Origin: Morinoia aosen
Taxonomy: Eukaryota; Arthropoda; Malacostraca; Amphipoda; Talitridae
DNA length: 64,000 bases
Reading direction: 5' to 3'
Assembly (NCBI GenBank): GCA_030386875.1
Contig: CM059563.1
Span: 49,603,602-49,667,601 of the forward strand
The notes beneath the pieces are model-generated. The model was not told where the DNA came from. It saw nothing but the letters and a program-made list of their open reading frames with translations, and did no database searches. This document shows, in pieces, positions 3,899 through 64,000 of the stretch (its first letter is position 1; each line of letters opens with the position of its first letter). The position numbers were made by a program, and so were the translations under genes.

Positions 3899-4286
3899 TT
3901 AACCCATTTACGCCGAGAATAGGAAATGTATTCAGATTTGTTTATAACTTTCAATAAAGGGTAAAATGGATGTAAAAGAAACAAAAATGACATCCATTTA
4001 GTTGTATAAAATATAATTTTTGAAATATGAGGCGTGATCATATGGACACGCTCGGCAAGAGAGGGTACAAAAACTAACTATTTTCAAATATGGTATATAA
4101 TGATAATATTGATCCATTTGAACATATGAGGCCTTGATATTACTACATATTCAATGTATATAGAATATATAAAAAAAATAACGTAAATAAATTATAAAAA
4201 ATAATACAAAATACAAAATTATATCCATCTTGACAACAAATAACCTCTTGAACTAATATGCAGTGGAAGACATATAAGGAACCAAA

Positions 4287-6264
4287 TTACTGCATGTGAT
4301 AAGACTTGAAGCATTGCAAGCACAGCCCAACATCGCATTTTGAGCAAGACATACGTATGGTGGAGCTGCATCCATCGCCGTTGCACCTACGACGGTTAGA
4401 TGCAATTGGGAAGTGATCAATTCTGTCGAACCTGGCATCATTGAATCCTGGACGTGATGAAATTCTTTTCATGCCACTATTCTTGGGAACCGTTTGAAAT
4501 CTAGACAAATATGACATTGCCACATTTTGTCTGAAATTGAGATGATCTTGTCCTGAGCCCCTCTTCTTAGCCAAGATCCAAGCATTTTGAATTGAAACAT
4601 CGACTAGCCAGGAAAATAAACTCCACCACCACTTTTTACCTCTGATTCCAATACGGTAGCAGTTGATGTTTTGGTCCATCTGATCTGTTCCGCCCATGGA
4701 ATTATTGTATGCTTTTACTGATTTTGGAATTTCGATTTCAACATGCTTGGTTTTTTGCTTTGACCAGCGCTTTACCTTACCAACGGGTAATACTCCATGG
4801 AGAGTAGACGCAACAGTTACAACAGCATTGTCTTTCCATCTAGTAACTTTGATGTTCTCTGAGCCCATAGTTCCCGTGACACACTCGGCGTAACCTCTCT
4901 CTTTCTTGTCAACTGTATTTGCATCGAGAATAGGGCATGATTTGTCGATCCTATTCTTTCTTACTGTCCCTGTTCCGTCATATCCGCGGGTTTTTATTTC
5001 TTGAAGCAACGGAAGGGTTGTAAACAAATTATCAGTGAATAGATGGTATGGAAGAATCCTTTTTTCATCACTGTACATATTCAGAAGATTGAGTACTGTA
5101 GCAGAGCATTTGCCATATTTGCTTTCTAATTCTTCGTCTCCTTGGTGAGTTTTCCCTTGGTAAGGATCAAACGCAATAAGATAACCTTCGGTTGTGTTCT
5201 GACTCCATATCTTATAACCGAACCTAATGGGTTTGTTGCGAATGGCTTGCTTGCAACTGTGTTTACCAAAATATTCCACCATCGCTTCGTCGTGTGAAAT
5301 ATTTCTCTCGGGAACGTAATGTTCCATAAACTTACGCTGCAAATGATTTATCAAAGGACGAAGTTTGGCATACTTGTCATTTTTATCAAGGTCATCAGTT
5401 GCATTGAAATGAAGACATTTCATAATTTCGTCAAATCTGTCTCGGCGCATTGCGCTGCAGATAGCTTCATTGTGAACTTCTGGAGACTGAGACCAAAACA
5501 TTCTACGTCGTGGTACTGGATGATATCCTGAGACAATTAGTATTCCTAAAAATACTCTCAGTTCTTCAATCGCAACCGAAATATCTGGCCAATTATTCTT
5601 CATGCAATACTTCGTCATCTGCTTCTTACAATAATCGAGCAGTTCATCACTGAAAAATAACTCAAAGAGTTCTGTTTCGCTCATTTGGTTGTAAGTGCTA
5701 TAGTCACCTTCAGGAAATGGAGCTTGACTTAGCAGTTTGTCTTCTTTTTTCCATTTTGGTTTTACAGGCGCCTCTTTTGAAGTTCTCTTCGTTTTCCTCG
5801 CTGGTTGCATATCTTCTTCAACCTCGTCTTCGATGTCGCTCTTGTTACGATACCTCAACTCTGCTGGCGCTAATAATTGATTACCAGACAAATTTTCAGG
5901 GTAAAATGGTGTCCCAGCGTCGTCATTTCCGGAGTCTTCATCCGTAACATTGCCCTCATTTGGCGGTTCAATGTATATATCGCAGTTGTTATCATCGTCA
6001 TTCTCTAATATATCCAGAATTTCATTCACAGTCAGTCCAGTCCGCCTGAAATAAAAGATATCATATTGTACCCACTTATACCGACTGTGTTCATATGATC
6101 ACGCAAAGATTATAATGACATTACAATACATAAATATTTTTCTGCAAACTCAACAATACTCATATACCTTCCTATGCATGTGTATATAATATTGTGAATG
6201 TTTCAACTGATTTGCATAATTGTAGCAAAAGTTATGGTACTTACATCCTACGTGAATTCGCCAT
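4287..6264 (-). CDS. piggyBac transposase, two exons, 592 aa
   Basis: This is a DDE_Tnp_1_7 (PGBD-type) transposase, which cuts at the element's inverted repeats and inserts at TTAA. I place the start at the ATG at 6264-6262. Exon 1 is 6264-6245, a predicted intron (GTAAGT donor, TTTATTTCAG acceptor) is 6244-6046, and exon 2 is 6045-4287, ending in TAA. Splicing restores one frame of 592 residues; unspliced, exon 2 would have to start at GTG 6029-6027. Catalytic aspartates expected for the family are present: D259 in SHDEAMVEYF, D345 in FTDNLFTTLP and D461 in NSMGGTDQMDQ. A basic stretch at about residues 88-108 may be a nuclear localisation signal. The C-terminus is a cysteine-rich zinc-binding domain with C561, C566, C574, C577, C582, C585 and H590. 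Length matches autonomous family members. Gene structure is predicted and not confirmed by RNA. Confidence 0.93.
6046..6244 (-). other. Predicted intron of the piggyBac transposase
   Basis: On the minus strand it starts GTAAGTACC and ends TTTTATTTCAG. Removing it joins 'AT' of exon 1 to 'GCGG' of exon 2 and recreates an ATG codon in frame with the long exon. It contains a copy of the subterminal palindromic motif at about 6084-6104. Confidence 0.75.
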
Positions 6265-6446
6265 GACTGCTACTGCGGGAACAGCGTGAACGTGACGTGC
6301 GCTCTCCTCAGAGGACACTCCACCACTGACTAAACTGTTGCATCAGATTTATTACCAGACGTGTACAGAACACGTTCAAATTCCGATTGAACGTAGTTTA
6401 TGCCTTGTTTTGGTTTTATATTGCTTTTTGAAAAGTAATATCAACT

Positions 6447-6462
6447 GTGTTCATATGAACAC
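6447..6462. promoter_or_regulatory. 16-bp palindrome next to the right TIR; repeated subterminal motif
   Basis: GTGTTCATATGAACAC is a perfect palindrome placed one base from the right terminal repeat. Near-copies are at about 4033-4050 (left end, followed by CTCGGC as on the right) and 6087-6104 (in the intron). Repeats of this kind just inside the ends are candidate transposase-binding sites; that role is inferred. Confidence 0.55.
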
Positions 6463-6482
6463 GCTCGGCGTAAATGGGTTAA

Positions 6483-17814: not shown

Positions 17815-18173
17815 TAAAGCGGCCCATAGACGATCAATTTAATTGTCAATATCATTGACTCAATATATTGACGAGATTTTTTTTCGCCCACTAAAGCGGC
17901 CCACAGACGATCAATTTTATTGTCAATATAATTGACAATGATGAATATTGACAATTATATTGATCGTCTGTGGGCTTGATTGACGACCGTCAATTAATTG
18001 ACTCAATGTATTGACGCAATAAAATCAGTTTGAGCCCATAGACGATCAATTTAATTGTCAATATCATTGACTCAATATATTGATGAGATTTTTTGTTGCC
18101 CACTTGCGGCGTCAATCTTTGCATCAATGTAATTGATGAAAACCAGTCATTTGCTCTGCGGACGCCGTACGTG

Positions 18174-18515
18174 ATGGACGACGAAGAAATTACCATTGTA
18201 ATTGTATCGCTAGCCTTGGCACTTTCAACTCCAAGAAAATCGCCGCGTAAACGCAAGACTTGGGCCAAAAACTGGCTCAGGGAACGTGGCAGGATATTCG
18301 GAATCGACGCATTGCTCAAAGAATTACGTGTAAATAAGCCAGAAGATTTCAAGAACTATCTTCGAATGGACACTAAATCATTTGATCAACTTTTCCATCT
18401 CTTCGCTCCATATATACGGAAAGAATCAACAAACGTGCGAGAACCGATATCACCTAGCCAACGGCTGTCGCTCACGCTGAGATATCTGGCGACTGGCGAT
18501 TGTCACTCCCTTTAG
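18174..18515 (+). pseudogene. HARBI1-like transposase, N-terminal fragment only
   Basis: ATG at 18174 opens a 113-codon frame. It reads MDDEEITIVIV, then a basic stretch (SPRKRKTWAKNWLRERG), then FKNYLRMDTKSFDQLFHLF and LSLTLRYLATGDCHSL, followed directly by TAG. This order matches the N-terminal, helix-rich part of PIF/Harbinger nucleases. In intact members it leads into the DDE_Tnp_4 catalytic domain; full-length proteins are usually about 350-450 residues. Nothing downstream in any frame restores that domain, so the gene is truncated, apparently by an internal deletion. Loss by an unrecognised intron is possible but no DDE segment was seen before the right terminus. Confidence 0.8.
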
Positions 18516-39085: not shown

Positions 39086-39674
39086 TTAACAGGAGGCCGC
39101 TTTTGAATTAGAATCAAAATCAATTTCGAATGGTAAAAAACGGGGCAAAAATGAGAATAAATGACCACCGTATAACGAAACTAAAGGCTTCCACAACGAG
39201 AAATGACGTGCATTCGCGGCGGGTGGCGGAAAGTCGTGGAACTCAAAAAGCATAGGACGAATCTGCTCTTTCAAATGCTCTAAGATATTATGTCTTCTTC
39301 CAAGGGAAACATTGTATTCAACCAGAGAAGCAATGAACACTACTAACATCAAGCAAAGTAATCTGCAAAGTAAGGAAGTCTGAGTGGCAATGCGATCAGT
39401 TCGGCGACCTGCATATTTAGCAGTTCCAGAGATGGCGGCGGCCGTAGCAAGAGTAGCAGCCGCTGCTGAGAGAGCAAGTCCAAGGACCCCTTCCTTGCCG
39501 CCACTCCCTGGTGCTCTTTGCTCCGAGAGTGCCACGGGGAGTCTGGCATACGCCATGCAAGCTCTCAGTAAAATGCGAGCAAGAAAAAAACCTTACTTCT
39601 TTGAACGATCAACAACCTGCCCTCCACCAAACAATTCGGTGAGAAAGATAGAACATGTTTTGGGAAATGCTTAG
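39086..39674. other. GC-rich patch open on both strands; coding status unresolved
   Basis: At 39400-39560 the base composition rises sharply. A 156-codon frame on the minus strand (39086-39556), the second-longest in the window, and a 96-codon frame on the plus strand (39384-39674) overlap here. Both translate the patch as alanine-rich sequence (minus LALSAAAATLATAAAISG; plus MAAAVARVAAAAERA). Neither is recognised. One could be a 5' exon, but high G+C alone reduces stop codons, so no gene is called. Confidence 0.3.
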
Positions 39675-63701: not shown

Positions 63702-63744
<43 letters not shown>

Positions 63745-63773
63745 CCACCAGGCAGCAGCAGCAGTAACCACCA

Positions 63774-63812
<39 letters not shown>

Positions 63813-63936
63813 CACCAGGCAGCAGCAGCAGTAACCATCAGGCAGCAGCAGCAGTAACCATCAGGCAGCAGCATCAGCAGCAGCAGCAGCAGTAACCATC
63901 AGGCAGCAGCATCAGCAGCAGCAGCAGCAGCAGCAG
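63702..63936. repeat. Compound CAG microsatellite with an 11-bp spacer
   Basis: Runs of CAG are interrupted at least five times by TAACCACCAGG, TAACCATCAGG or a close variant. Where CAG is present four times the higher-order unit is 23 bp (spacer starts 63742/63765 and 63832/63855). Because 23 is not a multiple of three, any one frame passes from poly-Ser to poly-Ala to poly-Gln, which argues against selection on a peptide. Confidence 0.9.
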
Positions 63937-64000
63937 AAGGGCAGCAGGTGGCAGGCGCAGGGCCGCGAGGCACAACAATCAGAGGTGACATTCGTTACAA

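Follow-up and report, generated by a model that had tools for sequence, protein, structure and literature searches.

The window, i.e. the 64-kb stretch of Morinoia aosen DNA analysed here, contains a complete piggyBac element on the minus strand at positions 3899-6482 (both TTAA included), delimited by its ends, its terminal inverted repeats (TIRs) and its further copies in the genome. A first-pass annotation of the window had claimed TTAA on both sides and perfect 15-bp TIRs for this locus, and both claims are confirmed. The TTAA target-site duplications occupy 3899-3902 on the left and 6479-6482 on the right. The TIRs, CCCATTTACGCCGAG at 3903-3917 (gene 3' end) and CTCGGCGTAAATGGG at 6464-6478 (gene 5' end), each given on the plus strand, form an inverted pair with 100% complementarity. 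They begin with CCC, a trait of the piggyBac superfamily, and so is the duplication of TTAA, which flanks the window copy and ten other insertions on both sides.

Elsewhere in the window, the sole other frames of at least 130 aa are found at 18093-18515, where Pfam gave no match, and at 39086-39556, with a sub-threshold match to MerC (15.5 bits, cut-off 27.6). A GCA-rich tandem repeat is located at the right edge (63702-63947). Further observations concern the assembly. Under the invertebrate code, the mitochondrial contig has frames recognised by eye as ND2, COX1, COX2, ATP6 and COX3, with ND5 and ND4 on the opposite strand, which points to an arthropod host. COX1 with eight TGA recurs 18,356 bp apart on C28 (2209-21902), a pattern expected from tandem joining of mitochondrial genomes, and it also occurs on C26 (20754486-21031548). 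On C27 (55303150-71643313) there are several COX1-like genes without internal stops, whereas the mitochondrial ones have eight TGA, and the C27 genes may derive from bacterial DNA incorporated in the assembly.

The transposase is the one gene of the element and is encoded on the minus strand. Unspliced, its frame comprises 603 stop-free codons, and the first listed start, a GTG, gives a protein of 580 aa (4287-6029). A 592-aa transposase starting with MANSRRMRTGLTVNEILDIL would result if a predicted 20-bp first exon with an ATG (6264-6245) were joined to a second exon including the stop (4287-6045) across a 199-bp GT-AG intron (6046-6244, GTAAGT..TTTCAG). This splice model is a prediction from the sequence. 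An acceptor-like T-rich run with AG is present near the same place in the relatives L075-L078, 4-7 bases ahead of the matching codon as compared with 13 bases for the window element; this region is the same in L077 and L078, and in relative L074 an AG without a clear T-rich run gives a weak resemblance only. Among the 16 copies described below, 14 have a spliced frame of 592 aa. One exception is L015, with the acceptor TTTTAG instead of TTTCAG, which escaped automatic splicing and was judged open from its 603 stop-free codons; the other is the internally deleted L024, with a frame of 392 aa. The uninterrupted 592-residue transposase of the first-pass annotation is consequently correct in length only with the predicted splicing, and it is not uninterrupted, as the main frame counts 580 aa.

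The protein matches DDE_Tnp_1_7 (PF13843), the domain of the superfamily, with an E-value of 7.5e-77 over profile positions 2-349 of 349, spanning residues 118-484 of the 580-aa frame. The aspartates D259, D345, D461 and D464 (592-aa numbering) are found in the expected order in SHDEA, FTDNL and GGTDQMDQ. These stretches can be aligned to the solved transposases of piggyBat and T. ni piggyBac, the last T. ni stretch weakly (i-Evalue 0.088), and the annotation was right that all three catalytic aspartates are present. The naming is based on the T. ni residues, which we take to be the catalytic ones. When solved transposases were searched with phmmer, only two distinct sequences were matched, piggyBat of Myotis lucifugus (PDB 9c0f; E 4.7e-24), the closest by sequence, and T. 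ni piggyBac (E 1.3e-14).

A C-terminal Cys/His stretch, H551-C561-C566-C574-C577-C582-C585-H590 (592-aa numbering, numbered by hand), is encoded at 4296-4415 on the minus strand. Judged by ligand order, it corresponds to the C-terminal cysteine-rich zinc domain (CRD) of the superfamily. The order is H - CxxxxC - CxxC - CxxC - H and not the CxxC-CxxC-CxxH-CxxC of the T. ni type; a His followed by seven Cys/His is the arrangement of piggyBat and PiggyMac in the available part of the source (PMC8086355). Thus, the cysteine-rich domain proposed earlier exists as a Cys/His stretch, but of the piggyBat/PiggyMac kind. None of the Pfam zinc-finger models matched the transposase at cut-off, and a single-sequence structure prediction gave no fold (mean pLDDT 32.6).

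Inside the ends, a perfect 16-bp palindrome, GTGTTCATATGAACAC, lies 17-32 bp from the right tip (6447-6462), on the gene 5' side, and an imperfect copy lies 132-147 bp from the left tip (4034-4049). Both are predicted sites for a CRD dimer. A third copy, also imperfect, is found within the putative intron (6087-6102). The motif GTGWTCATATGDWCAC with at most two mismatches has three locations in the 64-kb window, each of them within the element (six strand matches). The mean for shuffled sequence was 0.36 and none of 100 shuffles reached six, although this control is lenient because the pattern was fitted to these very sites. Given the different positions of the two terminal copies, the ends of the element are asymmetric, as in piggyBac.

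The element resembles T. ni piggyBac (PDB 6x67/6x68) in its TTAA target, short CCC-tipped TIRs, DDD core and asymmetric ends. Moreover, the available text on the T. ni element places its left-end palindrome, bound by two CRDs, within bp 17-33 (PMC7351741), close to the spacing at one end of the window element. On the other hand, the palindrome sequences look unrelated, at the other end the palindrome is set back 132 bp from the tip, and both the predicted intron and the Cys/His order set the window element apart from T. ni piggyBac. piggyBat also has a palindrome near one tip (P1LE, bp 19-30); its right end, in the part of its description at hand, has no palindrome but repeated GCGGGA motifs, whereas a related palindrome is present at both ends of the window element.

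A DNA search of the host's own 1.99-Gb genome with the element gave 33 matches from 30 candidates, all 30 of which were scored, and by reading 17 genome stretches we arrived at 16 insertions of the family. Thirteen are full-length, the window copy included (L009-L021). L022 has a rearranged right end, L023 and L025 together make up one copy split by another element, and L024 has lost 634 bp internally but retains its two ends and the TTAA on either side. Against the window copy, the 12 other full-length copies show 99.65-99.88% identity, and the pairwise difference over all 16 copies averages 0.22% (maximum 0.43%, minimum 0). Chance is excluded as an origin of the structure, since 15 other insertions have the same sequence. 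TTAA is found on both sides in 11 of the 16, and the transposase frame is open in all except L024.

Only 27 private substitutions were counted in 40,423 aligned bp, with 13 of the 16 copies carrying one to five each. The insect mutation rate is about 3e-9 per site and generation, and as a rough figure the time since insertion would then be on the order of 2e5 generations. The L023/L025 copy was later invaded by an LTR element of the Pao type whose LTRs are identical. Such an element, a 7.46-kb retroelement with Peptidase_A17, was read within one piggyBac copy at L056:2257-9713 (C23); its 728-bp end repeats are identical, its target duplication is GTCCA by eye, and it is younger than the piggyBac insertion that holds it.

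These data also bear on whether the family, though recently active, has since been silenced and has no live source copy today. The private substitutions make the burst young but not necessarily ongoing, and one copy has been broken by the later LTR insertion. Against silencing, the frame has been kept in 15 of 16 insertions, and for at least one pair of copies the columns compared show no difference. We consider silencing a real possibility, albeit somewhat doubtful.

Empty sites were sought for L009-L020 and L024. The sites obtained are paralogous and not alleles, as the flanks of six insertions lie in repeats that have uninterrupted relatives. TTAA was found at 27 of the 30 sites fetched for these six insertions: 15 of 16 for L018 (40 places listed), six of six for L014 (11 listed), three of four for L012 (many listed), one of two for L015 (three listed), and the single sites fetched for L020 (one listed) and L017 (several listed). 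The three exceptions read TTAC, TACA and TCGA. L018 (C5:34327826) and its relatives L058-L073 belong to an abundant repeat with 407 first-look candidates, and the best 40 of these, all that were scored, show 93-97% identity over the empty site. No empty site was seen for the window copy, L010, L013 or L016 among the best 40 of 3011 candidates, nor for L024 among the best 40 of 5425. L011 and L019, with single-copy flanks, had none among their four candidates, all scored. Empty TTAA sites, proposed in the first-pass annotation as a mark of movement, were accordingly obtained in paralogous form for six other copies and not for the window copy itself. Taken together, the near-identical copies, which the annotation had likewise proposed to look for, and the paralogous empty TTAA sites support recent activity of the family, so that this part of the earlier claim is upheld for the family by these data and not by intactness alone.

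Could the window copy nevertheless be a domesticated host gene, kept by selection and no longer mobile? Its intact frame would agree with this, as would the result that its own flanks yielded no empty site among the best 40 of 3011 candidates. Against it stand the 16 near-identical insertions, 11 of them with both TIRs and TTAA, and the empty sites for six other copies. Furthermore, the coding differences among copies (13 nonsynonymous versus 6 synonymous) give no appearance of constraint. We therefore regard domestication as highly improbable.

In a protein search, 16 family rows at 99-100% were followed by a drop to 42%, the sole intermediate row being 51% over a 215-residue stretch (best 75 of 2128 candidates scored). 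The 19-bp end with at most one mismatch gave 31 matches genome-wide, of which 30 are ends of the copies described here (reversed control: one match); the 31st, on C22, agrees with the element over 21 bp only. No MITEs or older relics appeared in this end search, which more diverged ends would escape, and DNA similarity (30 of 30 candidates scored) revealed none of either, the leftover matches being short pieces at 66-75%. Hence neither a series of older copies nor a MITE family was seen within the reach of these searches.

Other piggyBac transposases occur in the same genome. PF13843 gave 2398 first-look candidates, and a stop within the domain was counted by hand in 18 of the best 116 scored, a sample biased towards intact sequences because it is the best-scoring slice. 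When DNA probes were used (query counted), the L082 family had six copies at 100% after rounding, followed by a drop to 71% (30 of 30 scored), i.e. the same identity gap as the window family. For the L087 family, near-full-length rows at 93-100% numbered at least 22, and further rows lay at 88% and 77% (best 40 of 118). The L085 family gave at least 15 rows at 95-100%, including a partial one, and further rows at 74-88% (best 40 of 59). These last two families have retained graded older copies. Near-identical copies in three further families indicate that several piggyBac families were recently active, and several mutually distant families with near-identical copies and open frames thus coexist in this host. 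The premise that most piggyBac copies are decayed, which would make an intact one exceptional, is not borne out in this genome. Eighteen other transposases read from the genome are 21-40% identical to that of the window, and distant relatives that share 32-42% of residues along most of the protein were listed among the best 75 of 2128 candidates.

A horizontal arrival from another species would fit this pattern, the nearest relative listed from this genome being 42% identical. The family could also be a long-resident lineage that has lost its older copies. Relatives at 32-42% protein identity in the same genome are in line with long residence, and so are the graded series of older copies kept by the L087 and L085 families. 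However, no near-complete relative of the window family was present between 99% and 42% protein identity (best 75 of 2128), and neither MITEs nor relics were found by the end and DNA similarity searches, which makes long residence rather unlikely in our judgement. As to a viral carrier, a scan of IMG/VR with the transposase gave six pattern matches, of which none was confirmed.

The ends of five of the 16 insertions are altered: L011 (left TTTA), L018 (right TAAA), L019 (right GTAA), L021 (AAAT/ATAA) and L022 (right tip missing). The eight junction bases are changed in 4 of 13 full-length copies versus 0.07 substitutions expected from the interior rate (Poisson P ~9e-7, to be taken as a guide only since L018 and L021 are not simple substitutions). 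Movement or repair has thus not always been clean. The empty relatives of L018 read gtgtagaTTAAcagattacactgacc while L018 itself runs on as TAAATGGGcactgacc, meaning that TTAACAGATTA (TTAA plus seven host bases) has been swapped for the element's own last 8 bp. In L022, element position 2563 is followed by 22 filler bases, a duplicate of 48 bp (2517-2564) and a 394-bp inverted stretch (2564-2171), and the axis of this foldback is the predicted CRD palindrome. L021 lies in a 24-bp tandem array devoid of TTAA, with none within 996 bp on its left side or 439 bp on its right; judged by eye, it is most simply explained by duplication of the 4 bp ATAA together with AT at the left tip.

For piggyBac, the available part of a survey mentions a few target duplications other than TTAA, TAAA among them (PMC10813416). 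A non-TTAA target is likely for L021, which has no nearby TTAA. As a general cause, a non-TTAA target combined with a donor TTAA overhang is ruled out for L018 by the TTAA in 15 of its 16 empty sites. L011 and L019 may owe their altered ends either to a non-TTAA target or to a scar left by repair. We prefer to explain L018 and L022 by failed excision followed by end repair or by palindrome-primed foldback. Imprecise excision of piggyBac in Drosophila has reportedly been the subject of a published study. The broader proposition, put forward tentatively, is that piggyBac movement in this lineage is often not seamless, and that failed excision with end repair or foldback, as in L018 and L022, is perhaps one way in which dead and miniature copies arise in nature.

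In our interpretation, the locus very probably represents a complete piggyBac transposon, itself probably autonomous, that recently spread by cut-and-paste in the host germline. The anatomy, the copy number, the near-identity, the open frames and the TTAA at the empty sites of six other copies are the observed part of this explanation. Autonomy of the window element is possible and consistent with its intact ends and frame, and the family may still be active at present. The core of the spliced 592-aa transposase would act at the CCC-tipped TIR, and its paired C-terminal domains would be positioned on the palindrome near the right tip (bp 17-32). Cutting would proceed via a TTAA hairpin, with subsequent insertion at a new TTAA, and the 16 insertions would trace to one recent founder sequence. 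The chemical steps are presumed by analogy with T. ni piggyBac.

The element is a further piggyBac member of an already described type. For beetles, the accessible portion of a survey gives intact elements of 2074-3465 bp with transposases of 500-725 aa, multiple invasions per species and a divergence near 0 in many elements (PMC12732532). For small animal genomes, the corresponding part of another lists 212 piggyBac types, 85 of them with intact copies, transposases mostly of 503-675 aa, and CCCAT as one of four TIR motifs named (PMC10813416). Compared by description only, these types share TTAA, short TIRs and the presence of several types per genome with the window family. Since such surveys, as far as their available text goes, report many intact young families (PMC12732532, PMC10813416), the window element is an ordinary piggyBac and its finding is unsurprising.

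The value of the family lies in its being a clean natural case of piggyBac soon after a burst, with 16 near-identical insertions and little decay, in which the first derivative with an internal deletion and the first nested insertion can already be seen. Young piggyBac families are also candidate gene-transfer tools, and this host has several at once. The scarred ends could reveal how frequently the 'seamless' excision of piggyBac fails in nature.
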